A DNA stretch of 43,869 bases, taken from contig NW_003116955.1 of the NCBI RefSeq assembly GCF_000003605.2, positions 118,121 to 161,989 of the forward strand, in the 5' to 3' direction. The position numbers and the translations under genes are program-made. The notes under the pieces are model-generated. The model made no database searches, was not told where the DNA came from, and saw only the letters and a list, made by a program, of their open reading frames with translations. The DNA comes from Saccoglossus kowalevskii (Eukaryota; Hemichordata; Enteropneusta; Harrimaniidae). Below are positions 9,240 to 43,830 of the stretch, piece by piece. The number at the start of each line of letters is the position of its first letter. Position 1 is the first letter of the stretch.

Positions 9240-12200
9240 GTAAGTAACTAGGAATATTGTAGCATTTGACCAAATATGCATTTTTTTTATTTCAAGTAAA
9301 TTGAAATTGAAAAAAAGTAATTATTGATTAATGTTTTTTTGCAGATGCCTATATTTACATTGTAGGTTTTAGTGCAGGTGTCATTATCATTGTCATGGCA
9401 ACGCTTCTATTTGTCTGGTTATACAGGTTAGTGAGATTTTGTGTGTAGTGTATTGTGGTGAGAACATCGGTCCAAGGGTTCGAACAAAAAAGTCCCACCT
9501 TAGCCATACGTGACCATTATTTAACTTCTATCAAGTATGAAACATGAATTTAAAATATGTAATCTCAATTATTGGGCATTGGCTTTTCCTGTAGCGTTGG
9601 CGTTAAACAGTGACACTATACACTTTGATATTTGACTGCTACAACAAGTCAATTAACGATCCGAAGAAGTCATCTTACGATGTTCCATGTATACATGATT
9701 ACATTGTAGATTTATAGCTATTGCATATATTACCAGTTTAAATAGCGTCTGGACATCCAAGATGCCATGGACAGTTAACACAACAAAGTTTTTTAAAGTG
9801 GTTACGACAACTATAACTATTTACTCATGTACATTATTGTTTTTAAAGACGAAGTAATTACGAAGCAGATTTATTGAACATGAGATGGAAAATTCATTTG
9901 GAAGATCTGCACTTCACTGGAGGCGGATCGCAGAAAATGAAGTCAGGGAGCATGGGTGGCGGTAGCGCCGGTAGTCACGTACGTACATTACAATAACAAA
10001 CTCTACTGCGGAGGCTATATGCTCATAGCATAAATAAATATATTACTTATAAATCAGTTTGGACTTGAAGGTACCCTGAGAATGCAAATCTCCGTCACAG
10101 CGGCAAATTACATTAAAACGCGGTAGTCGTCGCGCTGCGCAAGTGCGAGATATATGGGTCTCATATAAACAAAGATGGCGACATTGACTGTTGCGCAGTA
10201 CGAATTGAGACGTTTCCAAGCTTAAATTAGGTAATTTTCATGTTATTTGAAGGTATCGAAGGAGTCACCGGCGGTAATCAGTGCAAGTCGCGCCCAGGTC
10301 AAACCTCATACTTGTGATTTCCATTTGAAGAGCGCATTGGATTGTGAGAAAATAAATGTTATCAACACGACTACCGCGCTTTAAAAGTGCAATTCAGCAT
10401 GCTTGAACTAAATTCTTTGTATTTATTCGTTCACAGCCAAGTTTGAATAGCGGCGGCGATATTTTGTCGAAGCATTCTTCCAATTTGTCTCATAGTTTAG
10501 ATGGAAAGAGTTCAGCGCCGTCTAATCGCACACTCCAATACTTTGCCAAGACAGCTACTTATAGAGGCGTGGTAGTTGCTTTGAAGAAAATCAACAAAGA
10601 GCACTTGCAAATCAACCGCAATGTTCTCATGGAATTCAATGACGTGAGTGAAGTTCATATTTTTATTAAAATAAATTCCAATATATGCCGCCTACCATAA
10701 ATCTGGAGTTTCGAATCCAATCAGTGTATCATAACTCAAATTATTCACATCCGACGTTGGAAATCCACCACGTGAAAATTCAAGTTTTGAACTTAAAGGT
10801 GTATTTAAAGTAAAATATTACGATTTGAAGCATTGTAAAATTATATTTTATTTGGCAATTAAATACCGCGATTCTGCAGGCGAGCATTTATAATGTTTCA
10901 TAATAACCGAAATAATCAATGTGAGTTTTTTGTATATAATACACAGTGGGAATGCAACTATTAGAAAATGCAAGGATGGAGCGTCACGTATCCTATACAC
11001 AGAGGAGTTGTACAACAAGTTCATTCAATATAATCTTCATACATACCTATGTTTCTCTTTACATTTACTTTTATTCTAGGTGAGGCAACTCAGCCACGAA
11101 AATTTGAACCAGTTCATTGGTGCCTGCGTAGAATCTAATACCATCTTCCTGGGATGGCAATATTGTGATAGAGGCAGTATTGTGGTGAGATAAACGAGTG
11201 GCATGTGGAATTACATGGGAACGGCTTTTCTAACACAAGAGGTCACCAATGTGTATTATATTTGCAAGATCGTTTCAATCTGATTTTAATATAGAGTAGT
11301 CGTATTTGTACAAATGCATTAAAAATACCTTGTATTATATGACATTATGATACTCAGAATATTTGCCATTCATGTGTTGCTTGGAGTGCGTAACATTTGG
11401 TAAATATCTTACAGGATGTTCTTCAAAATGATGAAATACGCCTTGATGACGCATTCAAGTTGTCTTTCATAACAGACATTGTCAAGGTTAGTATTATTTA
11501 AAAGGCATATGATTTAATAATTGAAATATGATTTAATAATTTGAAATCAATTCACGCCTTGTTTTGTGTTCTGGGATATTTATTCTGTAAATTTCAATTA
11601 TAGAGCAGACTTTAATAAAATAAACCATGTGCGCTGCATTTGTTTTGTTGGATGTACAAACAAAATAAAAATGAGGTTTATTATTTGCATTTCCTAATGA
11701 CGATTGCTACTTCAGGCCGAGATATAAACAATAAACCGAAGATGGTAATACATTTATAAGTATAAATTCTACATATGTGATTTTAAAATAATTACTCCTC
11801 GATAGGGTATGGAGTATCTACACAAGAGTCAACATGGCGGTGGTTCCCATGGCAACCTGAAATCGTCAAACTGTTTAGTGGATAATCGTTGGGTTGTCAA
11901 GATTACAGACTATGGACTCCAGACATTTTTCTCGGGGCAGACTGAGAACGAGAATACTGACGACAATGACAAGTTTTTACGTAAGTACAGGTACTTTTAC
12001 CCCTTTCGCTGATATTTATGTATGTACCTGAAATAATTCAAGTTCCAGTCATGACTCACCCAGCTGATAATTCGCCATGTTCAAGTTAATACGATATATT
12101 AAATAAATAAAAGAATAAAAGTGATACATGATATTTGAATATGTTAATTACAACTACTACAAAATACTTTGTGACACTATCAGTTTAAGTTCTTAGAAAT

Positions 12201-15200
12201 ACTTCACGTCACGTCTCTGAAAAAAAATTATGTTAAGAACAAGTTTTTTTGACATTGCATGCGTTAAATTCCGGGTTTTACATACATTATTGTTGCTGTT
12301 TTATTGAAACGTTGTACGATAATTATTCGTAACGCTTAATATGAATATTTTTAACACTTGAATACTGTGAGCACACTAATTTAATTTGAAAATATCCGAA
12401 TACTTATAGGTAAACTCTGGACAGCTCCGGAAATCCTACGTATGAATTTTCCTCCAGCGTGTGGGACACAAAAAGGAGACGTCTACAGTTTTGCTGTGAT
12501 AATATTCGAGATTTTGGAACGAACTGGACCTTACTGCTTCGACCATATAACACCAAGAGGTGAACATTAAAGCGGAAGAGCCGTCACCAGTGTACATGCG
12601 AAAATTGGGTTCTTAGCGATGATAACAGGGCACGCTAAAATGCAAAGGCTCATGGGTAGACGCTATGACCACCAGTCGCATGCGCAGGTGACGGCTCCAC
12701 CGCTTTAACCAAATACACCATGTGTACCATCAGCACTTATAAATGTAATTTAACATAACAAAGGTCAGGAGATAGCGAGTTTTTGATATACATTTCCTAC
12801 GGCCCGTCTTGATTTATGTGGAGTTGTCTCTTGACAACATTACGTAATTAATCTTGTATTGAAAGACAATTGGCCGATGGCCTGACTAAATTATAATGAG
12901 CCACCCATTGGATTCATAACGCTGAGACAGTGGAGTAACCAAGAGTATGGCTCATCGATATGAAAATCGCCGTTTTGAAAAAAAACACTAGCTCTAAGTA
13001 GGGAGGAGGTCGCACTCTTTACTTCGGTTTTGAAAGTACAACTTAGTCGGATTACTAGTATATGCGTTCCCGACCAATACACGGTAATTAATTGTTTTCA
13101 ACAAAGGAACCGTTCTGTACTAGTAAGAGCGGGCGGGAGAACTAAATAAAACTAAACGCTATCGAATAATACACTCAGAACAATGAGGATGAGACAAATA
13201 ATACTGTTCATAATGTCAAATAAATTCAGCATTACAATACTATTCATATTTCAGATGTAGTAAATCGTATTCGTAATGGCGAAAGCAGTCCTTATCGACC
13301 AGTGATAATGCTACACAATCCCGATAGTTGCGAATATGGTCGTGAATTGATTAATCTAATGGTGAAATGTTGGTCTGAAAATGTAGATAATAGACCATTG
13401 TTTCCCCGGATTAGACTCGAAATAAGAGCTTTGTGTAAAGGAAAAGAGTAAGTAAATTGTTTGATAAAATATTCAATAATGAAACAGTTGGTACTATTAA
13501 TTCTTTTTAATCATACTATGGTAAGCCAATGTATATTAATCTTTCACTTTTTGCTTAATAAGGATCAGTATCATGGATAACATACTGAATATGATGGAGA
13601 AATATGCCAACAACCTTGAAGAAATTGTTGAACAACGAACTGGTCAAGTGTTAGAAGAAAAACAAAAGACAGATCAACTATTATATCGGATGTTGCCAGT
13701 GTTAGTATAAGCATCAATGACATCAAATAATGTGAATCGGCAATGTAACTGTTGCATTGGGTGAATTATACGGACGTGTATGTTATGAATGCCTCGACAA
13801 ATGTAATGACATTGGGATGTACTAATTTAAAAGGATTCACCGTGACTAGGGAATCAAATAGTGTTGCTCACAAACTATTTTTTTTTTTATAAATAATTAG
13901 CACACTAAGATGAGATAAATTACTGGCATTATATACTATATTGTATTGAATTATTTCAAGGTTTTGGTTGTAGATTATTGATTTAAACAAAATTATTTTC
14001 AAAGAGTAATGAGGAACAATTTAGTAAGTAAAAGGAGGAGGAATGCTACTAACTGTGATTAGCGTTAAACCACAAATTCTGCGGCCATGTTGAATTGACA
14101 GTAGTCAAAATACACAGAATTAGCGTTTATATAATTTTAAATAAAACTAGTTTGGTTTTTCCAGTTTTTTTTTTGGAACTTTCAAATAGCGCGTTGCCGG
14201 AAAGAATTAAACTTTAGAAAATATGTTAACTGCACCCAACCTTAACATTCTTTTTCAACCAATCATTTTTTTTATGTGTATGCCTCGTGAGATATATTTC
14301 TATTAATCTTGGTGGAGAATTCAGAAATAAGTAAATCCACTACGAGTAAATGTTAAACGGGTGGTGATATGGGAGAAATATTAAATATACCATTTATGTT
14401 TGTTAATCTTGATTATCAGAACGGTGGCGGAAGCTCTGAAGCTTGGACAAAATGTACCCCCTGAAGATTACGAATCGTGTACAATATACTTTTCAGACAT
14501 TGATGGATTTGCAGAATTGTCTGCAGAAAGTTCTCCAATACAGGTGATTATTTGAATTGAATTATTATTGTTAACGAATATGACAAATAATGTATTATTC
14601 ACCAAACTATACATTTAAACACCTTGTAAATACGCTTATTTTGTTTCAGATTGTTGATTTTTTGAATGACTTATATAGTTGTTTTGATGAAATCATAGGA
14701 AACCATGACGTGTATAAGGTAGGTGACTTTCAATTTCACGTAAAATCGATACATTTCGGCATTTTGCAGGCCCATTGACCGTTTTACTGGCCATTTTACT
14801 GCATACACAATTTTCAAAAACCATAGAGTACCTTCTTCTTTTTAAAATTAGGTTGAAACCATTGGTGATGCTTATATGATCGTATCTGGCCTACCACATC
14901 GAAATGGTAACCGCCATCTAACAGAAATAGCCAATTGTTCTTTGGATCTGCTCAGCTCCGCCACCTCTTTTCAAATACGTCATCGCCCAAGCCAGAAACT
15001 GCAGTTGCGCATAGGCTTACATACGGGTCCTGTAGTGGCTGGTGTCGTGGGGTTGGTTATGCCTCGATATTGTTTGTTCGGGGATACAGTGAATATAACT
15101 TCACGAATGGAGTCAACGGGAAAACGTAAGGCTTTGTTTCAGTTACAAATTGTAGTACAGCGTGCATTACACTGCAACAGTTGAAACATTTGCATTCAAA

Positions 15201-16413
15201 ATACTATGGGTAATACCACAAACACCATTTAACAACTACATATTAATGCAATTATTTTATTAATTACAGCACTTCATATTCATGTGAGCAAACAATTGTA
15301 TACATCCCTGAGAGACATTAATGAAGAATATCATCTGGCGAGACGAGGAGATATAAATGTTAAGGTGATGTCATCTTCCTATTAACATTTGATGTTTACT
15401 CTTTATTTTAATAAAATATTTTCATGTTATTTACTATACAAAAATTGTAATATATTAATGCAGGGCAAAGGAGTAGTGCCGACATATTACTTATACGGAA
15501 AAGATGGCTATAAAAAGCCTCTGCCTAACCTTTCAAAGTAAGTTACTTTTATTATAATTATGAAATACATACGTTCAAAAGTACGTTTAGCATGTTTAGC
15601 AAAATTAAGCCCAACATTCCAATGTTTTATTCATTGAAAAACTAAATTATATTTTTTGGATTGCAAACTATTTGGAATTCCCGTATTTAGAATTTGTTGA
15701 CAGATATTCTAAACATAACACTACTTTTTGGAGAACAGAATATAAAATTAACCGATTTGGACAACATGAATATCATCACAATGCACGCGTGAACACTACA
15801 GACTATATAACGTTTTGAAAATAAAATACGATATTACAGTTAAAGGTGATTGCAAAGATTTGAGATATATGATCACTCATATACGTTTTACTCCCAATGA
15901 ATGGATTTTGTTTTGATTACAGTGCTAGCAAATTGAGTGGAAAACCTAATGGTGAACGGTAAGACACGTTACACTTCTTAATGTTACGTGAAATTGAATG
16001 TCCTATTTAAGACAAATAAATTCACTGCGATACTTAGAAAATATTGAACTATGACTATGTTGATGACCAGGTGTGGACTGTCAAAGATCACAATTTAAAA
16101 AGTATTCATAAATGGTGCATAATTAATAAATCGCTTAAACATTTCAGGCCATTATTTAATATTCATTATTCCACAGTAATGCGACATACTCAAATTTCAC
16201 AATGCTTCAGCAATGTATTAATATTAGAAAATCATTAATATTACCTTTTTGTTTTGATTTCTAAAATACACAACGAACGTTATTTCACTTCACTATATTA
16301 TTATATACTGTTTACATATTTGTCATGACGGGTCCACTTACTACGGCATTTTCGTTCTTACCTTTCGCAGGATGCATGCTGCTGAAGCAGGAGGCGATTA
16401 TGAAAAATCTTGA
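2465..16413 (+). CDS. rGC-A: receptor-type guanylyl cyclase, complete 25-exon gene
   Basis: A membrane guanylyl cyclase predicted to convert GTP to cGMP when an extracellular ligand binds. Order: signal peptide (about residues 1-22), ANF-receptor-type ectodomain (to about 451), one membrane helix (about 454-478), kinase homology domain (about 540-822), helical linker (823-868) and class III cyclase domain (869-1080). The 25 exons, using one of the two exon 7 versions, total 3321 nt, a closed frame of 1106 aa, normal for receptor cyclases. The start at 2465 ([12 protein letters not shown]) gives a compact signal peptide and matches the position of the starts in B and C; in-frame ATGs at 2408 and 2459 are alternatives. 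Stop TGA is at 16411-16413. The layout matches natriuretic-peptide-receptor-like cyclases, but the ligand cannot be inferred. Exons are listed in the domain entries. Confidence 0.95.
4432..4630. mobile_element. MITE flanked by TA, inside intron 2 of gene A
   Basis: The left end reads CTGTGAAATACTTTTTATTT and the reverse complement of the right end reads CTGTAAAATACTGGAATTCA; both run into TTTTCGC-rich sequence. A TA dinucleotide flanks each side (4430-4431 and 4631-4632), the usual target duplication of Tc1/mariner-type transposons. The interior repeats ATTTTCGCT-like words in both orientations, making the whole 199 bp strongly foldable. It is non-coding. Superfamily placement is inference. 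Confidence 0.55.
4730..4790. repeat. Dispersed short repeat, copy 1 (intron 2 of gene A)
   Basis: The stretch centred on AACAATGTATTTCACACGCG resembles 28622-28682 in intron 9 of gene B, including a shared CGAA-TTCAT block and CACGCG. Because the copies lie in non-equivalent introns they are not simply inherited from the gene duplication. The element type is unknown. Confidence 0.35.
6561..6696 (+). CDS. rGC-A alternative exon 7a
   Basis: Acceptor CCATATAG, donor GTAGAC (weak). It is 136 nt, entering in phase 0 and leaving in phase 1. It encodes [20 protein letters not shown] followed by a variable loop and ends MSYKTFRG. It matches exon 7b at about 30 of 46 residues and exon 7 of gene B. 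The start and the helix are conserved; the loop after ALND and the final residues differ, notably YKTFRG where 7b and gene B have NMFFKG or GMFFKG. Frame logic makes it exclusive with 7b. Confidence 0.85.
7572..7707 (+). CDS. rGC-A alternative exon 7b
   Basis: Acceptor TTTTTTTAAAG, donor GTATGA. Same length (136 nt) and same phases as 7a, 875 nt downstream of it. It encodes [20 protein letters not shown], a loop with KGKDHTNG, and ends MSNMFFKG, closer to exon 7 of gene B at the C-terminal end. If joined after 7a, the frame reads GGG CGA TAA and stops at once. If both are skipped, exon 6 to exon 8 reads GTA TGA. So exactly one copy must be used for a full-length protein. Confidence 0.87.
9345..9426 (+). 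CDS. rGC-A exon 10, transmembrane helix
   Basis: 82-nt exon between a GCAG acceptor and a GTTAGT donor. It encodes about 27 residues, beginning [20 protein letters not shown] and ending FVWLYR. A single hydrophobic span is followed by Arg, consistent with a type I membrane protein whose kinase homology and cyclase domains face the cytosol. Gene B exon 10 has the same length and phase. Confidence 0.93.
9849..13447 (+). CDS. rGC-A kinase homology domain, exons 11-17
   Basis: Exons: 11 9849-9978, 12 10437-10643, 13 11080-11184, 14 11415-11486, 15 11806-11980, 16 12410-12559, 17 13255-13447. Exon 11 is a juxtamembrane segment rich in Gly and Ser. Exon 12 has [15 protein letters not shown] with the ATP-site Lys (about residue 572), exon 13 the alphaC to hinge region (QYCDRGS). 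Exon 15 has HGNLKSSN in place of the catalytic HRD loop and DYG in place of DFG; exon 16 has WTAPEIL and GDVYSFAVI. This is the expected inactive pseudokinase that couples ligand binding to the cyclase. MITEs sit in introns 11 and 16. Confidence 0.93.
10117..10380. mobile_element. MITE flanked by TTAA (intron 11 of gene A)
   Basis: Left terminus AACGCGGTAGTCGT, right terminus (reverse complement) AGCGCGGTAGTCGT. The 264-bp element is bounded on both sides by TTAA (10113-10116 and 10381-10384), the target duplication typical of piggyBac-type transposons. The interior is non-coding and more GC-rich than the surrounding intron. The A-GCGG start is shared with the element at 12571-12704, so the two may be related. 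Confidence 0.6.
12571..12704. mobile_element. MITE flanked by TTAA, beside an exon 16 donor (gene A)
   Basis: Terminal inverted repeats AGCGGAAGAGCCGTCACC (left) and AGCGGTGGAGCCGTCACC (right, reverse complement) match at 16 of 18. TTAA flanks both ends (12567-12570 and 12705-12708). The 134-bp element starts 11 nt after exon 16 ends, so it defines the intron just downstream of the GTGAAC donor. It is non-autonomous and has no coding capacity. Confidence 0.65.
13563..13700 (+). CDS. rGC-A exon 18, helical linker
   Basis: Encodes [20 protein letters not shown], then a charged helix with [15 protein letters not shown], the dimerising signalling helix before the cyclase core of receptor and soluble cyclases. 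The donor GTTAGT follows CCAGT, so the junction codon with exon 19 is GTA (Val); gene B has Pro there. Intron 18 (13701-14419) is unremarkable AT-rich DNA. Confidence 0.88.
14420..15537 (+). CDS. rGC-A guanylyl cyclase domain, exons 19-23
   Basis: Exons: 19 14420-14543, 20 14650-14718, 21 14852-15125, 22 15270-15364, 23 15464-15537. Class III cyclase residues are present: metal-binding Asp in YFSDIDGF (about residue 895) and in VETIGDAYM (939), guanine-selecting Glu (935) and Cys in YCLFGDTVN (1007), and transition-state Asn (1014) and Arg (1018) in NITSRMES. One oddity is DIDGFA where the family normally has DIVGFT. The domain ends with [16 protein letters not shown]. On these residues the cyclase is predicted to be active. 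Confidence 0.93.
15923..16413 (+). CDS. rGC-A C-terminal tail, exons 24-25
   Basis: Exon 24 (15923-15958) is a 36-nt exon encoding [12 protein letters not shown]; exon 25 (16371-16413) gives [13 protein letters not shown] and the stop TGA. The last exon has the same coding length (43 nt) as the last exon of gene B, which ends in a similar Gly-Gly-Asp motif, supporting the terminal exon call. I found no counterpart of exon 24 in gene B. Confidence 0.8.
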
Positions 16414-21576: not shown

Positions 21577-24500
21577 ATGACACTCTTCTGGTTGTTTGTC
21601 TTGAGTTTTCTCTCTGCACACCTAATCATTCCCGCATACTCGTTAGTTCATATAAAATTGGGTTTTATGGCACCATGGACGACAGGATTCGATTTATTAG
21701 ACAACTTTAGTGGGACAACGAGCGCGGGGGCAATAAGTATAGCAATGGACAGGATAAAGGAAATGAACTTGGTTGAAGAACTTAATTTCGAGTAAGATTA
21801 ATTAATTTTAAAACATTTCGACACACAAATTGTATCAGGTGGTGAGATTTATTTATTATGATCGAATACATTTCACCTTGTCCATGTAGGATCGTTTGGC
21901 GTGATTCAGAGTGCAGTAGTAAGCAGACGAGTGGTAGAATAGTTGAACTATATGCAGATGAACACGTTGATGTTATCATAGGACCACCATGTTCAAAAGG
22001 TATGTTACTAAATGCTGCTTTGTGAAGTGAAAATTTGCCAGTCATATAATTTAATAATTCTATGTCGAAAAACTGCTGATTTAAAACAATATTGTAATAA
22101 CTGAACTAAATCATTCAAATGTGACATATCACATTTATTTTGCTAATGATGATTATTCTAGAACATCTAGTCTCCTAGTGTTTTGCATTGTGTTTTGAAT
22201 TATTGCTTGAATTTGTTTACAGCATGTTTTTCAGCTGGACAACTTGCTTCATTCTGGAATATACCAATAATTTCCTGGGTAGCGACAGATCCCGAGTTCA
22301 ATGACAAGACAAGATATACAACTCTAGGTCGGTCATTGGGTCCTTTCACCAAACTCGGTGTATTTCTAATGGAAGTAATGGAAGGTTATAATTGGAACAG
22401 AGTTGTTGTTATTGCATCTACATACCTCTTGTTTAAAGATGCTGCTACAGCTATTGTGAAGGTAAGATAAAAACAAGTTGTCCGTTCATGACACTGCGCA
22501 TCATACTTAATATATTTTATAATATAAAGTAGCAACAGAGGAAATACTACTATAACAACATATACATCATCTGGACGGCAGTGCATGTGCGAATGGCATG
22601 TGAGTTGCACGTTATGTGCTGGACGACTGTTTTTTGATATTTTTTTTATTTGCCTCTGTTTTCTAGTCTAATGATAACCAAATAAGTGAAAACAACAATA
22701 CTGACAATCAACGTGCAATTTTGACAGGTTTTTATACATTGTCACAAAAACAATGTAAAGCCGGAAACCTCGTAAAGTGTAAAACTACATTTAGATTTTG
22801 TTGACCCACAACATTGGTTATCCCTCAGACAAACATTGGCACGGTACTATGGTATTTGCTTATAGATAATGTATATATTGTTACATTAGCATGCTCAGTA
22901 ATGTTTAACCCGCTTTTCTCATGTGGCTTCAATAAATATAATTGATCGCATTAAACTACTGAATGACAACGTATGTTGTACATCTGTTTACAATATCAAC
23001 AATACGCATAACATCAACATAACAATAATCTACGAATCATGATTATATTACAGACTTTTCAAGAAAATAACGTCACCCTGGCATATTACGCTACGTACAA
23101 TAACAACCCAACTAAGAAGTTTATACAGAAAATTTTGACAAAAACAAAGAAAGAAGGAAGAAGTAAGTAATGATTTAGTTCTATATTCCATTCACATATT
23201 TGAGGATCACATTTGTTAAAAAACGAATGCTAAAAGTAACATGGTCTTTTTAGAAAGTTTAAATATTATTTTAAATATTATTTTACAGTAGTGCATTGAG
23301 TTTATTCTAAATAACACAGAATCATAAACGCTACATATACAAACAAAACCGACCTCATGTCACCTCAATATTGTATTACAAAACAATCCAGTTCTGAGGG
23401 AAATAGCCAATTATCTCGTCTGTCAAACGTCGATCTGTTCACCATCTATTTGATGTTGATGTAGTTAGTAGCACTTATACTCCATAGACTGGGCGTATTG
23501 GTGCCCCGGAAGAACTGGAAATTAAGTGTACAACTGAACCTCAATTTGAGTTTTACTTTCGCCAAGCTTATGTATTACAGGATAGATATACATATTATAT
23601 GCTACATACTAGTGTGATAACAAAATAGTGAATTAATAATCAATTAACCATATTTTTCGGAGAGACATTCCATCCACTCTGAATTATGGAATATACTTGT
23701 CGATATTGCAGAACATGTTGATCGTATGACGTTTTACTTCTTAGACATTGCCCATTGCAGGTTTGTGGTTCCTCGAAACCTTAAAATCACATTTTTATTT
23801 GTCAATATTCGCTCTTCCATTAGTAGAATTTATATTCAAAAATATCAAAACAGCATTGATGTACATATGATTTATTGTGTTTTAAGTGGATATCATTTTT
23901 TTCAGTTCACCAGATGGTGGGGGAAGTTTCAAACTTAAAGAGCTTCTAGAGTTGTTCAACCATTCTGTTTTATACGTATATAGGCATATTTCTCCAGAAA
24001 AGAATGTTTTTTTTCTGTTATCAGATAATGATGTCAGGAGTATGAAATACTTGAGTCGGCTTAACTACGTAGATGATAATCGCACTGTTCGTCACATTTG
24101 CTACATGATAGCAAAACACATTATCAACAATACCAGACGGTCAAGTGTAGATAAGCAAGATTTCAACATAGTGTGAAAGTTTCACATAACACAAAAATCT
24201 ATAGCAGCTATCAAATGTTGGACTTTCCTGACCAACTGTAAAACACAAGGTGGGAGTGACTAAGTTGCATAATCTTTCAGCCAGTGTATACATTTTACAG
24301 ACTCATTTCAAGGTAGTTACAACACATTATTACTACTGCTTGGCTTGTTATTATTGTTCTACTAGTCCAATAACCGTCGTTAACAAACAGTTTTCGTTCA
24401 GAATTTTGTTCCAAACAGTACCTGTTTACTAGAAAAGTAGTCCGTTTTTCCAAACAGTATATGTTTACCAGTTTTTTTGTTCTTAAGATTAAGTGTTTAC

Positions 24501-27500
24501 TAGGGAAGAACTTTCTCGTAAAGAAGTGTTCAACAAAAATGTCTTTCTGCACTATTCCTCCCAAGCTGATTATGGTTTTCAGTTTGTATCGCTTATGATA
24601 TTTTATCGATATGAAACCAATACTATCTAAATAAGAAAAAAATGTCATTATGCAAATTGCAAGATTACAAGGAAGTACATGACAAATTATTGCCAAATAT
24701 GAGTGTCACACAATTATGATACATATGTATAATATATATATATATATAGACTTGTCAGGTCAAATCAATTACACTTTTTTATTGTGGTTCTGAAGTTTGT
24801 TAGATAGCAAGGTGACAACTTTGCTTAATGCTGGAGACATTTTGTTTCTAGTTCGGTAAGCTTTTCTGGTTGTCTATGTTACTTACACGAACTATGTACC
24901 ATGTGAGCTTTCAGTGGTTATAAGTATACATTACACACTGTAGCCTTGCAGGCTACCACGTCTATATTTAAATAGAAAGTCCTCTAATTAGAGTGCTGAA
25001 AGAAACACTGGGTCAAATCCATGCTGAAGGAATCGTTTAAAAACAGGAAAAAACTGTTTTATGTCAGAAAAATCTCAATACAAGTCCACTTTTTATATAA
25101 TACATACATCAACCAACTACAGATTCTGATAATTTCACTCCAGATTGGCTCTCATGCATATCCCATGCATCCATATTCAATTATCAAGATAATCAAGCTG
25201 CAGGTACACCGATGGAGTTCAATACCAGTGTGACTTAGTTAACATAAAATCTGCACATCGATGCATTTTGATGATGTAAAAATGACTCATTTCGTGGTAC
25301 ATCTGACAAAGACAGCAATACAAAAACACTGAATCTGCCCACCAAGAAGACAATAAAAGAATAAATACAAAATTAAGGCACAGACAACCAAATTGTTTGA
25401 AATTAGGATTTGTTTGAAATGATGAGATTAGGTACCTTAACAGACGCTATATTTGTAATCAACTCCTTCAAACCCCAGTATTGAACATTTTCACATAAAT
25501 TAAAACTGTCAGTATTGTAATTATGTTTTTATGATAAATTATTGAAATTATTTCCTACGAGTTTTGCCATTAGGTTTGAAAGAATGTGAAGATTTTTTTT
25601 AAAATTATGGCCGAATCCACCACCACATATCTTTTTATTTTAAATTGTGTGTATCTATTCCTTACACAATGTACATTCTAACTGCTCAAAAGTATCGTAC
25701 GTCATATAGTATTTAATTAATGGATATTTCAATTAATTAGGTGAAAGGCCTTATTAGAGTCAATGTATCGCAAGAACTTACAAGGTTGTATTTGATCACG
25801 CACTAGGGAGAAGAATGGTCCTATATTGCAATGTATTGCCCTAAGCCCTAAGCCATTATGATTTCCCCATTAGATAGTATGGGAAATGTGTTAAATATTG
25901 AAATTCTCATATCTTTGGAACTGTAAGAGTAGTGTGGTTATTTATTGAGTTACACATATTTCGATGAGGTTTTGTCGCACTTGGAAACATATGCAAATGC
26001 ATGTTTCTATGCATGGTATCATTTCGCCACGTATTTGTGTCATGAATATCAGGAATGTTGTGGAATTATTTATTGTAGATGCACATTCACTGCTAATTGA
26101 ATATTGTGCACACAAATAAAGATATCTGAATAAACTATTATCTGAACATGTTACCTTCAAATGCCAATATCTATTGCAAATATGTCTTTACTTCGAATAA
26201 AAATAATTTCATTTTGCGAATGTGTATAACCCTAGTAACCATTAAAATATCTAACACATCATGTTTCAACAATCTGTCACCCGGTCTTCGCGTTTTTGAA
26301 TACACTCACTTTCAATAAATGGTTTTCTTACATATACAGATGTATTTCAAAATTCATGCAATTATCTTTTTACAGTTGTTGTTATTTGTGCCCCCAAACG
26401 GGATCGGCGCATGTTATTACTGGAAGCATACGATATGGGCATGACTACAGGAGAATACGTGTTTTACACAGTTGAAATGTTACCTGAACAAGATGTCATC
26501 ACTGCTGAAGAAACATTTCTAGGAGATGATGGCCGTGACGAAGACGCTAGAAAAGCATTTGGAGCAGTATTCCATGTAAGTACATAAGATACCTGTCCAC
26601 TGGAATGTGGCCGTATGAAAGGATGGCAGTTGATATAATTCGAGAGTGTTCGGGGCTCGCTGATAAGGTTTCTGCAAACTAAATATTCCCCATTTATGAA
26701 CAGCAAATTTTAGTGTTTTAGTTTTTTAGGACAACATTGTTAAAACTGTCTTTTCTGGGAAGAGAAATGTAATTTATGGCATATTTTCACACTACCTTAG
26801 ATGTCATTGGCTGCATTGACTGGAGAAGAAGTAGACCAATTCACCATAAACGTGACACGTCGTCTAGCAGGCCCACCATGGAATTTAACATTAAATAGTG
26901 AAATTAAGGTAAGATGTGTATAATTCATTATTATTTGACACATGTATTTTATTTTATACGACCACACTGTGTCATATTCATCGAACAGATCAATAACCAC
27001 CCAGGGCTTACACTAGATATATGAACATTTTACTCATAATTTACATTTTATTCATAGTTACACATGATTTGTTATTGTAGGGGAATAAATATTCAGCTTT
27101 TTTACACGATGCTATAATACTATATGCCCTGGCGTTGAATGAAACACTGTCAAGAGGGTTTGATCATCGTGATGGTGAGGTGATGTTACAAGCAATGGCA
27201 GGAATGTTTTTTAAAGGTCAGTGGTTACCAATTGGTACAATAAGAACGACCCGTGATTATGTATAATAGTAATTTGTGATAATACTACGTTTAGTTTGCG
27301 AAATTTTTTTTTTATAAAAATGTGCTTCTGATGTCAAAGATACTTCACGAAATAGGTCCTGTGTCTGTACAATGTGTTAAGACAAATCATTGAGCAAAGC
27401 ATGTGTGAATTAAAATTCATCATGGCGATTCGTCAAGTTTTCAGTTCTTTCGTACATAATAATTTTGTTAGTGTGTGTGGGGTATTACAATGTTAAATAG

Positions 27501-28352
27501 TTTTGTAACTAAATATTTTTCACAATGGATATCCTTATTGCCTGATCAGTGATAATTAACTGAGTTGTGGCTGGTTGGGCAGGCAGACAACAGCTATATA
27601 CGATTACAGGTGGTAATAATTTGGTGTCAATAACTGTAAATACTATTCCTGCAATTCAGATATTTTCTAGATATTATCATATATTTGGTCACCTTAATAC
27701 CTATTATAACTACTTAATTACATACCTTTCAAGTAATCCGAGATGGCACTTGATTTTTCATCTTGCTTAATGGTATTGTACTGGTTTCCTTTTTGATGAC
27801 CGTAACAATTTTGTGTTTAGTTCGACAACTCGAATAGAAAGTAAAACCATCACACAAAATTGGAAGTCGATATTGAACTGATTAGCATCATAACAGAACA
27901 TTGTAAATAACCAAACAATGATTCATATTATTCGCACACTGGTCTCATATAGACACAGACAGATACAAAGACACTGTTCTATAGACGTGAGAATGTCACA
28001 GTTTATATGTATAACCACGCAGGTATAACGGGGAATGTTTTAATAGACATGAATGGAGACAGAGAACCAGATTACTGGATTTCAGATTTACAAGAAAATG
28101 GATTGTTCAAGAAGATTGCAGAAGTTGTGAATGTTGATAATGGGACACGGGTAAGTGTAAAATAAACTATATTAAACTCAAATGTTCATTGTCAGTGTAG
28201 TCGCTATGTTAGTCCTAATGTTGGTGTTCATTTTCAGATCACACGTCAGCTTGCCGAGCCACGTTGGGGTGACGGACGGGTTGGACACCAGTTTGCACCG
28301 CCAGACATTCCAGTATGTGGGTTTCAAGGAGAATTTTGTCAAGGAAGTAGTA
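21577..28352 (+). CDS. rGC-B ectodomain, exons 1-9
   Basis: Exons: 1 21577-21791, 2 21890-21999, 3 22223-22461, 4 23054-23162, 5 26376-26575, 6 26801-26908, 7 27081-27216, 8 28023-28150, 9 28238-28352. The signal peptide runs to about PAYS, then [10 protein letters not shown]. The ANF-receptor hallmarks are [27 protein letters not shown] across the exon 2/3 junction, [32 protein letters not shown] and the juxtamembrane [10 protein letters not shown]. Unlike gene A, there is only one exon 7; I searched intron 7 (27217-28022) by eye for a second copy and saw none. Exon 5 is 3 nt longer than in gene A. Confidence 0.93.
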
Positions 28353-31300
28353 GTAAGATAATTATTGTATATTTTATAAAGAACGAAAGTAGTTAGAACA
28401 ACGAGACAATCGTGAATATGTTTAAACGGTTTAAAACTTTAAGTACATGTGTAACTTTTTTTGAGCTGTGACACTGATTACTGAGCGAATGTTAATGTTT
28501 CAAATACCATAATTTGCAATAACACCGCGCAGATGAATGAATATTGCGTGGGAATTAAATCACTTTCAAAATAATTACAGATATCTTGAATATGCATATA
28601 CTTATATACTCTGTATGCTCACGTGTCGCAGTCGTGCAGTCGAATTTCATATGAATAAACAATGTATTTTTCACGCGTTGTACACATCGTATGACATCAA
28701 ACTCAACAACTTCACGGTGTGGCTGAAATATTGGAATGTGTAAATATAAATACTTTAATTCCTAAACTACATTTTATTTTTGTTTATTTAATAGGTGTAT
28801 ATATTTACATTATTGCCTTCTCTGCCATTGCTTTGCTGGTTGTACTGGTAGTCATTCTTGGCTTATTTCTATACAGGTATGTAATTCATGAACTGAATGG
28901 TTTGTATAAATGTATGCAAGTGTGTATTCAATTCAATAATGTGCAGAGCATAGTAAGACATGGTAGATTGTTTCTTACCTCTGTATTGTTTGAATGCTCT
29001 TGCATGTTAATTGCGAACAGACAATGGTAATGTGCTTCATGATTTGCGTTTTCAAAATTCCTAATACTAACATATGCGCACTAAAAGTCTTGAAGCTGAT
29101 TAACCCACTTTGCTCAGAACCATATTCCTCCCATACAAATGTATATAATAGAAAAACAAAGACAGAACACAACTCCGAAATTAACAATTCAATTAGTTAA
29201 ACAGTGTCAGTTTTAAAACACAATGCACGTTGTTATCATGAACACAACTAAATGTTTTTGACTTTTGTTATTAGACGGAGTCAGTATGAAGCTGAACTGA
29301 TGAGTATGAGATGGAAAATTCAAATGGAAGAAGTCCAAATGGTGTCAAATACGTCACATCCGAAAATGGCCTCCGGAAATGGAAGCCAGGTGAGATCACG
29401 TATTTCCTATACAATTGTCATTATCCATCAGCATGTTTAAATGAACAGAAAAGCGAACGAAGCTGTAACCACAAGAATGTATATGTTAATTCCTTAGACT
29501 AGTGGTAACAATATGGGCTCAGGTTCTTTGCTATCAAGACTTTCCGGGAAAGGATCCACCGATTTACGAAGTACAATTACTAATAAAAGCACACAGTACT
29601 TCTGCAAAGTCGGAGTTTATCGGGGATTGACTGTGGCCTTGAAAAAGATCAACAAGGAGCATATGCAAATCAACCGTAAAGTGCTAATCGAATTTAGCGA
29701 GGTAAGGCACAGTGAAATACAAATAGAACATGTGTTACGAAATTAGACTCTATGCGCGACATTCAACAATCAACATATCATCAATAAATTTGATTGAACT
29801 TCAATCAACCCACTATACGTAATCAGATCAATGTCATAAAATCTGACTATTGTGTGTATTTTCTTTCACGTAGATTAGGGAACTTAGTCATGACAACCTG
29901 AACATATTCATTGGAGCATCGGTGGATGTGGGAAACATTTACGTACTATGGCAGTATTGTCCTAAAGGAAGTCTTCAGGTAGTTCATGTTACACTAATGA
30001 AAACAATGTTTATATTATCAGATACGTGAACTTACTCATGAAAACCTCAATATATTTTTGGGAGTTTGTATAATAACTTCTAAACTATGTCTTGTGTGGC
30101 AATATTGCCATAAAGGAAGTCTGCAGGTATAGTTAAAAGCAGGGTTAATTTGAATTCAAGGATATGTGTTGTGTCGTTCTTTACAGTTTTTAGAACTATC
30201 AGTATAGCATGGCAGGTAAATAGTCTGTGTGCAATGTTGAGGCTCTTGCCGTGAACACGTGCTTCGAATCCCGTATTAAGTGTTGTCATGTACGTAGGCG
30301 TGTATTACTTATTTAACCTAAATATTGTATTTGTAATTACCGCTAAGCTGTGTCTTGTGTGGCAATATTGACATAAAGGAAGTATGGTACAGTTGTTTCA
30401 ATAATAATAAATGGTCGTATATTATTATTTGGAATATTAAATTAATATTATTTTTATTAGTAGTAGTAGAATTATTCCGCAACTGAATAACTGCAAACAA
30501 ATTATTACAAGAAATGTTTGTTTTCTACAGCATCCTTAGCTGAAAATAAAATAATATGTTTGTTAAATCACGGTGTTAATGTTGACAAATTGCTTGGAAT
30601 TAAACAACTGTGTTAAATTGGTGAACATCAAACTAATAATGTGTCTCTCTTGGCAGAGTGAAACCTTGCAAATAATGAATAAAAATGTCATTTCGTTTAT
30701 CCTGCTGAGCCACGCTAATGCATGTATTCACTGGAAAATAAGTAGAAGCTTGTATCCCGTCTATAAAGACGTTGTAGATAGGAACATATCTCATTGGACA
30801 GTTTATAGCAACCCAGTGTTTTATTTGTGGCTAGTAATTTTAAAGGCTTATGCAGCCAGATTATATTTGTTAGTGGTCAATGGCAATGTGGTGACGTGGC
30901 GTTGTTGATATTGAGCATTCCTTCAACCATTCGATCAATTGAACATGCTCATACATATACGTGGTGGCGTTGGTTTCATGATATAGTATCAATTGTTTGC
31001 AACTGGACTTAGAAATCTGCGATGCGAGATGATAGACATGACATTCAGGCTTCTGAAAATGATAAGGTGAGGTCGTTCGAGTTACCCGCCGGGGAGCTGA
31101 CATCCTTATTTCAATGATAGTCTCGTTAGAAGGGTGGCCAAATTAATACTAATCGTTGTATGTCGGGTTATGCTAATATAATATTAAATATCTTTCTATT
31201 TTGTTGTGGGAAAATCTTCTGCTTTAAATCTCTGATGCCAGAAAATGAATAATGGTTGAATGTTGTAATCCACTGAATGTATAACTGATTTATTTATCTC

Positions 31301-34300
31301 TTTATTATTTTTTTTTCAGGATGTGTTAGAAAATGATGATGTGAAGTTGGATAAAGCATTTAAGATGTCATTTATTTCGGATATTAATATGGTAATATAT
31401 TACCTATATTCCACCGATGTTTCATTTAATTGGACACTAGACGTTAGACAAATGGTAGCCGAAATCTCGTCTTTGCCCTCAAATTGTCTTCTATTGTCTC
31501 CCTTCATCGAGGGTACTGTTTCGAATACTATGGTGACCATTTGAGTTACCACGCAAATTTATATTTTGGAGATACTTTTTAGTGTGACTTGTTTTCGTAG
31601 TATCAACACAGCCTGTTTGAATGAACGGGTGATCTTCGTGGTGTGAACACATTTACTACAATCACATGAAGCGAAAGAGTTGAATCACACGCACCACAAA
31701 AATATATAGATATTGCAAAACACACATACAGCAAATATATTATATTATCATATTTGTGTATTTGAAATATATTGAGGTGTAACCTACTGTCAGTCTAAAA
31801 TTAAGTCATTAAATTCAAGTTATGTCAGGAATCTGACTCGACTAGCTTATAAGCTATTCCAGATTCCATTTTACCTAGACTGCATGCACAATTTTGTGTT
31901 TTGTATGAAATATTTTCTACGTAAATAAATTATTATTTTTATAAATAACATAACATAACTTAACTTAAGATCTGCCGAATAACAATAAAACACGTATTTT
32001 GCTAAAATCAAAATAGTTCAAAATTCCCAATCCCACATGACATTTTAGATTGAGAATTTTTGTGTTCATGATATTTTACATTGTATATAACAGGGAATGG
32101 AATACTTACACAAAAGCCAACACGGATACAGTTCCCATGGCAGCCTGAAATCGTCAAACTGCTTGATAGACAATCGGTGGATAGTGAAAATTACTGACCA
32201 TGGTCTGCCGAGTTTTGTGCAAGGACAAACTCAAGCTGACGACACGGAGGAGCAAGATAAATTCTTACGTAAGTTTTTACAAGTGCGCTCACTCATCGCT
32301 TAAAGTGGAATGATACTGAGAGTGAACATTTTGTCATGTAATACGAGGTATTACGAGAATACCTCAAAGTATTATTAGAGGACGCTTACATTCCATATTT
32401 GGAATTCGCATTTTCTAATATGGTAGGATGATAATACTCCGTTAAATACCGCAAAATTACGACGCGCTGTAACTTATGACGTTACGGTGACAGATGTATA
32501 ATAATATTCTATATCGCATAACGAATGAATAATATTCTAAAATTAAAAATGCAAATGTAAATTTAAAATGTACCACAGTATCAGTATCATTATCAGTATC
32601 ATTATCATCACGTCAATTTTAAATAAATCGGTTTAAAAACTGTTTTGTCTATATAAACTACTGTTAAATTGCCAAAAACAAAATCTGCACATAATAGTAT
32701 ATTAAAGTTATTTACAAGTAGCGTGCGGGTCTAGTACATTGAACAAGTAAGTCACGCACAGTAAGTCATTGTCATCTGGTAATTCACCAGGAAATTGAGA
32801 ACGAAATATTATTTCTTTTACATATTATTTTATAGTTATTTTTTTTCTCACTCAACTGATTGAGTAATATTATTGATCGATATGGGATTGCTAACTATCC
32901 CACATCCTCTGGGTATGGGATAATTGTATGTGACGTCACAGCTAATGAATTCATAAAGCATAATCCGTTCTGTTCCAGGTAAATTATGGACCGCTCCTGA
33001 AATTTTGCGTATGAACTTTGCACCCCCATGTGGCACTCAAAAAGGAGATATTTACAGCTTTGCTATTGTAATGTTTGAAATTCTTGAACGTTCTGCGCCA
33101 TATACGTTTGACAACATAACACCTAGAGGTAAGTCACAGTCGACAGAACATATCTGTGTAGTTGGTTTTAGATCAATAAACCGTCTTTAGTCACAGGGGG
33201 AAGTACGCACACAGGTCTTGTTTAGTGAAGTTTGTAACTTCGAGCTACACTAATTTTAATTCAAAAAACAAGCTCGGTTGAAGTTGTTTTTGACTGGAAC
33301 ATTACATATTCACATAGTATTCAGAAATTACATTACTGATAGATCACTATCGATATGGTGTCGTATTGTTCATAGTATTTTGTTTCGCAACTCTAGATGC
33401 TGTTAATCGAATTCGAAGTGGTGAGAGTATTCCGTATCGTCCAGTCGTATCAGTCTCAGATGAGAACGAGGTAATGGGCAAACGTATTTACCAGTTAATG
33501 ACACAATGCTGGAGCGAAAATCAAGAAGAGAGACCATCTTTCAGCAAAATACGATCTGTTATTCGTGCTATCAATGGCGGAAAGTTAGTGATTTATATTC
33601 ACTCATTCATTCATCCATCCACAACAAGATTAGTTAATGAAAATGTTGAATAAATCACTTGTTTGGTGAAACATAATTCTACTCAACACCCCGCTGGCAA
33701 CAAGAGTTGCATTATTCAATCATTACAACAAGTCAATGTGATTATCGTCATAGTAATGAATATTCATCTATTGTTGATACTAGCTGTCAAAGATAATATA
33801 TGTGTTTATACTATCATTAATAAATTTGTTCTGTGTAATGGCTATCATTGTGTACTTATATGTTACACTTATAATGTCTTTCAATACCATAGATCCAGAA
33901 GTACGTCTTATAATCTGTTAAAAGATTGATATTGTCCGATAATATTATTAGATTATAATATTATATCCGATCAATCTACGTAGAGCTTTATTTTCAGGGT
34001 TTATCTACACAAATAATACCATTAATCGTATATCAAATTTACACTGATAACTCGGGTATGTGTCAAAATATTGTTGAAAAACCAGTCAAATTCAAGGAGT
34101 TGGACACATTTTTAGGTCACTTGTGAATAAACGAAATTTGTTAATCACTTTTTTGTAAAAGCGAGGTAAATAAATTACTTTTTTTATTTCTTCATGAGCA
34201 GGCTTTCTGAATTTACGTGTTCACTGTCTTAAATGCCCACTTCGTCGTATTATATCAAACAACGCGCCGTGCATGCATTTAATTACTTATATAACGATGA

Positions 34301-36635
34301 TAACGTGGACAGTGGTAAAGTAATCAGTGTGTGTTATATTTCAGAAACATCAGTATTATGGACAATATTTTAAGCATGATGGAAAAATATTCGTATAATC
34401 TTGAAACGATTGTCGAGGAAAGAACAGAAGAACTTGTGGAAGAGAAACGAAAAACGGATCGGCTGCTGTATCGAATGTTACCTCCGTAAGTTCAAATATA
34501 CATGTAATAATAGCAAATAACATGCGGAAAAATAAATAGGGAGTAGTGTACCCATACTGCTCCACCAAGTGTCAGTAGAAGCGAGCATATATAGCGATTT
34601 TAGCAGGACATTTTCACATATCTGATTAGATCTCAATTCCTGAATCACCTTTTAGTAGGTTTCAAAGTACCGTCATGAAAGGTATGAATGATGTTACTTT
34701 TCTTACATACACTTTAGCAGTATTCTCACACTTATGTACAATATATATTGCAGGACTGTAGCTGACGCCCTTAAGTTGGGGAAAATTGTGGAGCCCAAGC
34801 ATTATGAATATGCCACTGTGTATTTCTCTGATGTTGTCGGTTTCACTAAACTGTCTTCAGAGAGCACAGCAAAGCAGGTAACACGATTTTTTTTAAAAAC
34901 ACGTTGGCGGATATAATGATATGACAATTTTCTCAAATAATGTCGATTTATTTATTATTCACAACTTTCTTGACATTTTTGCTACTTTTTCTATACAAAA
35001 TACGACACAAAGTATTCAATGAATACAGAATGTGTGGATGCAAAGATTATTAAATAATGAAAATGCAACTAATGTGAGCCCTTTTGTCGTTATAATGCAC
35101 TCTGGGGCTTACTGTAAATGGGAAAGTGTGTGTAGTTGTCAGTGATGGTGAATGCTCTCATATTGAAAATCCAGGTGCTAGTCTTATGGATTGGAATATG
35201 TTGTCCCATTTATGTACACAATGTCAACATTTTCAATTAAACATTCTTAACCGTGATGCCATTCTTAGAATTGGACTTTCCCCCCAAAATAAACTAAATT
35301 CGCGCCACAGGAAATCAAATGAAGATATAACTAAATCCTGTCTCTGACTGACCGTATGTATGCACGTATGCTTGTCCGTTCCATTTATATATTATTACAA
35401 AAACGTGTTCTGCTAGTTATTGAAACGCCGTATTCTCATTGGTTAGTCGGTACAACGCAGTCCTTGTTTTTCTTTATAGGCAATATTGGGAATCTTCCGC
35501 GCATCTTTAATAACTACACGTGGGATATCAATGAAACTTGGTACAGGGTTTTTCTTGCATAATGGCCATATCAGATTACTTTGGAGTGAAATCCATGCAA
35601 TATAAATTGCTCAATTTGCATAAATTATTCATTTTACTTCAAATTCATTCCTTAGTATAATTGTTAGTAATAATGACTTGAACCACCTCAAGGAGCGGAG
35701 CTATATTAGTTGACAGCCATAACTTTCGCACACGAGAGCTCTTTTTAAGCTGATATTAAAGAAGTTTGTGAAAAAAAAACAATGTTTATGAATTTATTGG
35801 GCGTTACATTCAAGAACACTCCTATAATGCAATGCTATGTGAATAATACTCGGTCAGCTTGCTGATGCAATGAAATTGAAAAAAAAAAACCTGCTATCTT
35901 GAATGTTTTATTATTTTCAGGTTGTTGACCTTTTGAACGATCTTTACACATGTTTTGACGAATTGATTTCAAACCATGACGTATATAAGGTAATGTTCTT
36001 TACCATGTTCATCATATAAAGTGTACCTAACAAAATATACATGTTTGACTACCTAATAACTCATAGACGAGTAGTTATTTTGTCAGTCAGTCTACAAGAT
36101 ATGTGAACAAAGTGGTCAGATGTTTAGAAAAGTGTTAACACAACCTGCCGTACACGTGGCACACGCTTCATATCATTCTCTGTCAAAAGATCAGAAAGAT
36201 GATACTGATGTCATCTGTAATATACTATACCTATTGTAATAAGAACAAAACTAATGAAAAAACACTTCTACAAATAAGGTGACATTATCAGTATGTGGAA
36301 TGTAAACACATATTTGTTTATATCTCCAATATATTTATCTGTACAGATCAAATTCTATTCAATTCATGAAAGCTTAATATTTCAACTTGACCTTTAGATA
36401 CATTTCTGATGTGCTTTGTATCAAAAAACGCAATTTTAGTGATTATCTTCCAATAATATATTCAATAATCCAACTGATCATAAGGTATCAAATCATGCAG
36501 TCAACTTCGTGTGCCTAAAACATATTTACGAGATACCAGATTCTATGACAACAAAAATGATTTTAATTTCACCATCGAACGTCTACAGCAATATTTTTGG
36601 TTGACACCATCGTGATATTTCGTGACGAAGCGAGT

Positions 36636-36666
<31 letters not shown>

Positions 36667-39600
36667 TTCACACAGCGATTGGTTTTATCAAACGTTTATG
36701 TCATAGATGTAAATAATTGACAATATAAGTGTCCGTCTCATTTTATTGAATTGTTAGGTGTTGATGGTAAAAGGCTCGGAACTGCTGTATGTTTTTTTAT
36801 GGAAGTTGTATATGATAATATCAATTATATGTTGTTATATGATAGTCTCGCGATATTCCGATATTAATATACTTACACTGTAATGTATAAAAATAGGTTG
36901 AGACCATTGGTGATGCATATATGATAGTGTCCGGTTTGCCACAGATGAATGGTAAACGTCATAGTGCTGAGATTGCCAACTGTGCATTGGACCTGCTTAG
37001 TTCCATCACACGTTTTAAAATACGTCATCGTCCTGACGAAAAACTGCAACTGCGAATTGGTATACATACAGGTCCTGTAGTGGCTGGTGTTGTTGGTTTG
37101 GTTATGCCTCGATATTGTCTGTTTGGGGATACTGTCAATTTAGCGTCTATAATGGAATCTAATGGAAAACGTGAGTTTATCAATTAGATCCACATATTTT
37201 GTATACGGTTTATTCGAAGAGACGTTTGGTAAATAATGCTATCATGTTTACATTTGTAAATAATAAGCACATGTTTTTTTTCAGCTTTACATATCCACAT
37301 CACCAAGCAAACCTACCTAGCTCTGATCGCATTAAATTGTGGATATCGTATGTATCATCGTGGAGAGATACATGTCAAGGTACGTTGAATATGTAAATAA
37401 TCCACAAAAGCATTTATGTGACACTAGAGGGTATATGAGACAGTCAATCGTAATTTTCATACTACTTGTCAAATACATTTCCCAATACACCTAGTAAGCC
37501 TTTTTAATTAATTAACAAAGCTTATCTTGTGTGAATTTGACAATCTTTATAAAGGGACAATTGTTTTCAATCATGTAATAGATTTTGGAAACTGACATAA
37601 TTTTAAAGTGATGAATACAATTGGGGATTTATTATTATAGTGCGATTTATTTCTTATCATTTATGTAGTTTTGAATCGTTATGCACGTTCATTTGTGAAA
37701 TGTCATTTTATTGCCTACATATTTGAACTTCCCATAAGATAGTGTGGTATGGAGGAAGAATAATGCATTGTGGCCAGTGAACAACACAGTTCAGAAGCTG
37801 TAATTTAATTAAAAATTCTTCGTGAATTTAACCAACGGTTGACAAGGCCGTAGTAGAAACTAACACTCATACTCATACAGGCATCGGTTTAACGCCGATC
37901 ACCTGTGAAAATTGAAACAACAAGCGAACTGTCTAGCGTCGAGAAGATCCATATATAAGAATTCCAGAATTAAACAAGGGAACATTACAAACATTGTATC
38001 AATGTACGAAGACCTTAATAGGCTCTTGCTGAACAGCGTACAATTTGAGTCCACTAGATATTTTTCAAACCCTCGCTATCAAAGCTATTATTTTATAGTG
38101 GTATACTGTGGTATACTGTATTGTGTACATCTCACGCGAGCCATCATTGGGACCGCAATGAAATAAATTTATTTCTGTAGTTCTGCAGCAGACTTGATTA
38201 GTGATGCGCCCGTAATTGACTATTTAAAATTAATTTGATTAATTTTCTCACCAAATAGTGGCGTTTTCACATTAAAATATTGTTCCCATTCGTAACTTGG
38301 TACATGAATCTAGCCAACCGGAGTGGGTTTGCTGTACATGTGTTTGTTTGGTGTGTCACTAGGTCTGATTGTAACACTTTTCAGCTTAACAAAAAGATAG
38401 CGTTTGACAGCGTAGTTGATTATCTTAACGACTGCTCACAGAGTACAAAACGAAATGAATTTACATATCTGAATGGCATACTTGACACAATAAATAATAT
38501 CGCAAGATAAATGTACACAATTATGTTATTAAATTCGTCACAACCTGCTACTACACACCGAAGTGCATCTCATAATGTGATAGGCAAATTTGACAAAATA
38601 AGTTGATTGTCATCGACAACACAATATTCAAGTGCCCAGAGTCCGCGTACGTTGGGAACTACTTCTTTACTTATTTCTTTATCATGTCAAAAGATGTGGG
38701 AGTTTATTGAATTATCGAAATTAAGAAAATCATTGATGTCATATATGGCTTTGCATTGTTTTTTTGATTATTGATAATGCTCTCACGACAGATTTAAAAT
38801 ACACTAATCAATATATTACACTAATGAGTAGGCCTGGGTAATGTGGAGGTCATGTCAGTGTAATTATTACCACATATATGTGAATCAGATGCAAATCGAA
38901 CATCGATGGAAAGTTAATTGGTGTACGTTGCTCAATTAACGGACAAAGGGTTAATAAATAAGAGACACATCGCTGACAAACTGGTATTACATTACAGGGC
39001 AGAGGTTTACTATCCACATATTTTCTTGCTGGTAAAGATGGATACAAAGGTTTCCTGCCTGCAGTTCTTAGGTATGTATGTGAAATTAGATTTGTCAAAG
39101 TATAGATCAACCGCAAATCCGGTGATGTGTGTGAGGGTACGATTATTTGAAACCATTTGTTTAAACTAACAATGGCGAAAGACTCGACACATACACACCG
39201 GGAAAAGCGAGAAAAAACGGGCAGACACAGAAAATGCAAATTCTAGTTCCATATGATGTGTCTTGAGAGCCATATAATTAGTATATTGCAAAAACAATAT
39301 GTTTGTTTAATTCCACCACGTGCTCAAATACGACAGAAACTTTAAAACATGATATGACTGGTACTATTTGATTAGATCAATAGTGATGGTTTCGACCTAC
39401 AACACTTTCTACTCTTTCTTTGTAAATAATCAACTATATACTAACTCGAATCTGTTTTGTTGATATTACCATTAGGTTTTAGATATACAAATCGTTTTCT
39501 GATTTACTGGTATAACTTAGGAACTACTTGTATATATGTATATATATAGTAAATGCAATATTATGTATTTGTGTCTCACTATACCTCAATCGCTGTACTA

Positions 39601-43618: not shown

Positions 43619-43830
43619 ATGACACTCTCATGGTTGTTTGTCCTGAGCTCTCTCTTTGCATACCTAATCCCCGCATACTCGTTAATCCATATCAAATTGG
43701 GTTTTATGGCACCATGGACGTCAGGATTCGATTTATTAGACAACTTCAGTGGGACAACGAGCGCCGGTGCAATAAACATAGCAATCGACAGGATAAAGGA
43801 AATGGACTTGGTTGAAGAACTTGACTTCGA
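43619..43830 (+). CDS. rGC-C exon 1, partial (runs off the window)
   Basis: Encodes the signal peptide MTLSWLFVLSSLFAYLIPAY and the start of the ANF-receptor domain ([10 protein letters not shown], then [18 protein letters not shown] and LVEELDFE). The context CCACC before ATG is a good initiation site. It ends in GA before GTAAGA, the same phase 2 junction as A and B. It is far more similar to gene B than to gene A, both in coding and upstream sequence, so B and C are the younger pair. The remaining exons would lie to the right. Confidence 0.92.

Follow-up and report, generated by a model that had tools for sequence, protein, structure and literature searches.

Two pairs of adjacent alternative exons provide the closest described precedents for the locus reported here. 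In the alpha-tropomyosin pair, exons 2 and 3, the branch site lies close to the upstream donor (Smith and Nadal-Ginard 1989, via PMC6692369), and OGDH exons 4a and 4b are exclusive exons that likewise have a branch site near the upstream donor (PMC7969005). In human extracts, about 50 nt between donor and branch site is needed for efficient assembly (PMC6692369), and a donor-branch distance of <50 bp, used as a criterion for hindrance, was found in 57 of 629 human clusters (PMC5740500). Nevertheless, human introns of 43 and 49 nt are spliced; these are G-rich and carry an enhancer, the 43-nt example being in ESRP2 (PMC4463651).

Alternative splicing is also known to modify kinase and kinase-like domains. 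The mutually exclusive tandem exons of FYN encode the SH2-kinase linker and the N-terminal part of the kinase with its ATP site (PMC9741552). Among receptor guanylyl cyclases, NPR-A and NPR-B isoforms without exon 9, a 75-bp part of the kinase homology domain, occur at a low level and yield an inactive receptor (PMC10665444). The same domain is a site of chaperone contact in GC-C, whose residues 528-544 are unfolded in the Hsp90 channel of the GC-C-Hsp90-Cdc37 complex (PMC10400071). A surface-level search of the open-licence literature found no replacement exon in a receptor cyclase.

Here, we describe a putative case of that kind, exons 13a and 13b of gene B from the hemichordate Saccoglossus kowalevskii. 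As alpha-tropomyosin and OGDH are portrayed in the sources cited, the likeness is that of adjacent alternatives with a branch site near the upstream donor. The differences are that non-joining was demonstrated on RNA in those genes and is predicted from DNA for gene B, and that in gene B the whole spacer is 43 nt, with a branch motif merely 19 nt from the donor. FYN, as summarized above, resembles gene B in having tandemly duplicated exons for part of the N-lobe of a kinase; however, FYN is an active tyrosine kinase, gene B encodes a receptor cyclase whose domain is kinase-like, and the segment differs. The reported NPR-A and NPR-B isoforms resemble gene B in that alternative splicing would affect a receptor guanylyl cyclase within its kinase homology domain, but they skip an exon, whereas gene B would replace one and keep length and frame.

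A receptor guanylyl cyclase gene with two copies of exon 13

The window, the whole 43,869-nucleotide stretch of DNA that was analyzed, contains on its forward strand two complete-looking receptor guanylyl cyclase genes (A and B) and exon 1 of another such gene (C) (Table 1). The joined frame of the 23 gene B exons runs for 1075 codons with zero stops, with 13a or 13b alike; this count ends before the stop codon, which, like any further exon, was not located. Pfam ANF_receptor (PF01094), PK_Tyr_Ser-Thr (PF07714), and Guanylate_cyc (PF00211) follow in one chain, and gene B is by this domain make-up a receptor guanylyl cyclase, for which cGMP production is predicted.

Table 1. Positions within the window of the genes, exons, and splicing elements discussed in the text
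Feature	Position	Strand	Description
Gene A, receptor guanylyl cyclase	about 2489-15526	+	Complete-looking
Gene B, receptor guanylyl cyclase	21577..39070	+	23 exons found; end of last exon set arbitrarily, gene reaching at least 39060
Gene B exon 12	29498..29701	+	Start of kinase-like domain; phase-0, stop-free join to 13a and to 13b
Exon 13a	29874-29978	+	35 codons (105 nt), open, phase 0-0, AG before, GT after
Spacer	29979-30021	+	43 nt, GT...AG, 6 G/43, GGG absent
Candidate branch site CACTAAT	29992-29998	+	From YTNAY scan; CTAAT core, A at spacer position 19
Exon 13b	30022-30126	+	35 codons (105 nt), open, phase 0-0, AG before, GT after
13c, decayed third copy	30315-30386 matched; 5' half probably from about 30299	+	Missed by the first-pass annotation
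Gene B exon 14	31320..31391	+	Joins after exon 13
Gene C exon 1	43619-43828	+	85% identical to gene B exon 1

The first-pass annotation had described the pair as two open 105-nt exons of phase 0-0 separated by a 43-nt spacer with its own donor and acceptor, and this is borne out by coordinates and dinucleotides alike. The complete joins, 12-13a-14 and 12-13b-14, are both in phase 0 and free of stops.

The two exons are identical at 67 of 105 nt and at 20 of 35 residues. Their 38 differences are distributed over codon positions 1, 2, and 3 as 9, 8, and 21, with NG86 estimates of 0.33 for dN and 2.5 for dS, the latter saturated. When 13a was mutated without selection to 38 differences in 5000 simulated runs, 29% of the frames stayed open, and only 1 run of the 5000 retained at least 20 identical residues. 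Neutral decay over the whole of the 13a-13b divergence is therefore excluded, and coding constraint on both copies is supported by the codon-position bias together with the simulation, a result compatible with recent loss of one of them. Comparison with 21 other exon-13 copies (L022, L025, and L027, which change length, were left out) revealed that 13a and 13b both keep every column that is invariant in the others, namely, F12, G14, Y28, C29, and G32. Elsewhere, their losses are complementary. Exon 13a has lost C16, present in 20 of the 21 others, and has Y in place of C23; 13b, in contrast, keeps C16 and C23, has lost the acid at position 18 (D or E in 21/21 others), and carries K21 and L22, which are absent from the 21 other copies.

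Splice sites and the 43-nt spacer

Within the spacer, the dinucleotide AG occurs at positions 3-4 and 42-43 only. Under the usual scanning rule for the choice of AG downstream of a branch site, the branch site of 13b must consequently sit inside the spacer, and the distance from donor to branch site is therefore <43 nt. A YTNAY scan returned three motifs, of which CTAAT alone is well placed, 24 nt before the spacer end. The first-pass annotation was right to single out CACTAAT as a candidate branch site and slightly wrong in placing it about 17 nt from the donor, as the branch A is at 19. The predicted donor-to-branch distance for this best motif, 19 nt, lies far below the approximately 50 nt under which steric hindrance is expected. 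Thus, the match to steric hindrance that had been proposed holds for the short spacer and for the proximity of the motif to the donor, from which hindrance itself would follow by analogy.

The spacer is short by local standards too. Across the 44 introns of genes A and B, the minimum length is 87 nt, twice that of the spacer, and two gene B introns with revised borders (223 and 108 nt) leave this minimum unchanged. Also, the 27 joins estimated between adjacent myosin-head pieces are all at least about 105 nt, in a small sample where stop-containing pieces could bridge short introns. Unlike the spliced human introns of 43 and 49 nt, the gene B spacer is not G-rich.

Donors were scored with a model trained on 41 gene A and gene B donors, whose sites were picked partly by consensus, which flatters them. 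Against this model, the 13a donor scores 5.2, in the lowest tenth, and the 13b donor (CAG/GTATAG) scores 3.2, below all 41. The acceptors rank at 12% for 13a and 38% for 13b. Among the other exon-13 copies, 19 of 21 have GT at the same border; the donor of one single-copy exon (L004) is as weak as that of 13b, and that of another (L023) is weaker. Weak splice sites suit regulated exons and, equally, a dying exon. The reading frame provides no safeguard, because exons of 105 nt remain in frame when both are included and also when both are skipped. Read-through of the spacer, in turn, meets an in-frame stop 17 codons past 13a.

Probable mutually exclusive use of 13a and 13b

We propose, with a probability of roughly two in three, that 13a and 13b are mutually exclusive exons and that exclusivity is achieved at least partly by steric hindrance. 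According to this model, exon 13 was duplicated in tandem, and both copies would have been retained as alternative exons, with the spliceosome joining exon 12 to either 13a or 13b and then to exon 14. The 13a donor and the 13b branch site would compete for the same space in the spacer, and joint inclusion would be disfavored because the spacer cannot hold the two far enough apart. Each mRNA would then encode a full receptor, its kinase-like N-lobe having one of two 35-residue segments. The pair has the DNA features of the mutually exclusive class, as judged by like length, same phase, and residue identity. To the observed anatomy, coding constraint, intact frames, and shortness of the spacer relative to other introns, we add by inference the expression of both isoforms, their exclusivity, and hindrance as its cause. 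Caution is advised by the weak 13b donor, the lack of a frame safeguard, the loss from 13b of the otherwise universal acid at position 18, and the spliced human 43-nt intron.

Evidence on the persistence of copies at this place comes from 13c. Over 53 nt (30334-30386), it matches 13b at 87% identity, and it has an in-frame TGA at the position of the family Cys29, a 9-nt deletion relative to 13b, and a weak donor; its 5' half is faintly recognizable, with 16 of 2000 shuffles scoring as well. Because 13c has a 13b-type middle, it derives from a 13b-like exon, and its decay indicates that copies arise and die at the exon 13 place. Exon 13b remained open while this sister copy decayed.

These observations bear on the possibility that a single copy is used, most likely 13a, and that 13b was silenced recently and has not yet acquired a stop. 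Such a history would agree with the bottom rank of the 13b donor, with the fate of 13c, with a branch that is longer for 13b than for 13a (0.63 versus 0.16, at a fork that is open in the tree), and with the simulated share of neutral copies that stay open at this divergence. However, the residue identity matched in 1 of 5000 simulations excludes a long neutral decay and leaves room only for a recent silencing; moreover, 13b keeps the invariant columns, equals 13a in its kinase-model scores, and has the higher-ranked acceptor. We regard a silenced 13b as unlikely, yet worth serious consideration.

It is very unlikely that both copies are included, with the spacer removed as a tiny intron and the N-lobe extended by 35 residues. 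The spacer does begin with GT, end with AG, and contain a reasonable branch motif, the double form is in frame, and a human intron of the same length is spliced (PMC4463651), but half the length of the shortest of 44 introns, a donor-branch distance of 19 nt, and a composition that is not G-rich are difficult to reconcile with such splicing, and joint inclusion would duplicate strands of the kinase fold. An off switch, in which 13a, spacer, and 13b are kept as a 253-nt unit whose stop codons, met soon after 13a on read-through, cause message decay, is extremely improbable, as it leaves the coding constraint on 13b unexplained and any out-of-frame retained intron would be equivalent.

What the swap would change in the kinase-like domain

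By kinase anatomy, we take exon 13 to span the end of alphaC, beta4, beta5, and the hinge. The placement in this segment made at first pass agrees with alignment to structures of GC-A (9bcl and relatives) and GC-C (8fx4), the names of the elements being those of kinases in general. The accompanying remark that the ends are kept while the middle changes turned out to be exact. Over codons 1-14 and 26-35, the copies share 58 of 72 nt; over codons 15-25, limits that were chosen after inspecting the data, they share 9 of 33 nt (24 differ) and 0 of 11 residues.

The divergence of this middle block is an outlier. When the other copies were paired, 122 pairs had 12-18 differences; in these, the longest run of differing residues is 10 and none reaches 11, and random placement of the differences gives a run of 11 in 1 per 20,000. 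Among the 253 pairs that can be formed from 23 copies, 35 have ends that are at least 70% identical; the other 34 have middles of at least 42% identity, versus 27% for 13a and 13b. The simplest reading is that the beta4-beta5 part has been tuned divergently in two directions. We do not claim positive selection on the block, where pN is 0.66 versus a pS of 0.56 at the ends (Fisher p 0.40); middle pN exceeds end pS in 3 of the 253 pairs. Borrowing of the 13b middle from another paralogue was rejected too, as its best matches (L004, L005, and L007) share 20 of 33 nt, an ordinary paralogue identity (mean 0.52).

Both versions of the spliced domain fit kinase models equally well: 13b scores higher than 13a with the Pfam kinase model (154.4 versus 148.0 bits) and with GC-C (113.9 versus 111.1), and lower with GC-A (223.4 versus 228.4). 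Position 26 of exon 13, presumably the usual gatekeeper place, is Trp in 13a and 13b, which gives no obvious sign of a swapped nucleotide pocket. GC-C residues 528-544 align with exon 13 residues 16-32, and the fully differing block (15-25) lies almost wholly within them. The changed block is a better match to the Hsp90-threaded stretch of GC-C. One speculative and rather doubtful extension is that the exon swap acts as a chaperone switch, with isoforms that differ in N-lobe stability and in dependence on Hsp90-Cdc37; the GC-C complex, as described, involves no alternative splicing, and the gene B receptor would be a client of Hsp90 by analogy. If there were such a switch, receptor lifetime or responsiveness would differ, rather than ligand or nucleotide binding, and, together with a tandem exon 7 pair in gene A, the cluster would diversify its receptors through duplicated exons that lie in different domains. 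Any functional difference between the isoforms, including the tuning of nucleotide binding or signal relay put forward at first pass, is likewise predicted from sequence.

One receptor gene may yield two receptor forms. If both isoforms are made, a kinase-like domain would be retuned by a replacement exon, with no new gene copy, in a receptor cyclase family that otherwise grew by gene duplication. Exons 13a and 13b would also supply two naturally occurring N-lobe variants, constant at the ends and different in the beta4-beta5 part, for probing the role of the domain, and the pair represents a very compact putative case of branch-site hindrance.

Exon 13 across the genome and in neighboring genes

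Searches of the genome found at least 29 places with 13b as the query and at least 26 with 13a. Leaving out 13a, 13b, 13c, and two unlike matches (C3649 and C207), either query recovered the same other cyclase-like exon-13 loci, at least 24 in number. No second copy was found within 1.5 kb of 24 such loci, one of which (L013) stops at a contig end; partial matches near L016 (E 0.053) and L029 (E 0.49) look like chance. The nearest relatives of 13a among the matches listed are L004 (71%) and L014 (68%). At L013 and L024, exon 13 is continuous with exon 14, the intron being absent. The match at L022 (C355:310580-310669) falls within a frame reported as open for 12,239 codons, which may reflect a stretch of N counted as open.

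In a tree of 35 columns, 13a, 13b, and the A13+L011 pair all emerge from one open fork (92/88). The best tree groups 13a with the A13+L011 pair (support 74/19); forcing 13a and 13b together costs 0.12 log units (p 0.43), and forcing 13b with that pair costs 0.33 (p 0.49). The tree thus neither separates these alternatives nor dates the duplication. Given the open fork, the duplication may be older than the divergence of gene A from gene B, in which case gene A would have lost a copy.

Gene C is the nearest relative of gene B. Its exon 13 is hidden from view because the downstream sequence runs into N, which makes up 52,193 of 70,000 bases of C1056 past 161989.

Gene A has a tandem pair of its own, in the ligand-binding domain: two exon 7 copies of 136 nt each (6561-6696 and 7572-7707), with GT after both, 29 of 45 residues identical, and differences per codon position of 14/7/32. 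Use of the two together would shift the frame because 136 is not divisible by three. No further close pair was found among 25 genome matches. Another cyclase gene, close to gene A (C1056:214145-230949; L042 and L043) and on the minus strand, has a single exon 13 (L011).
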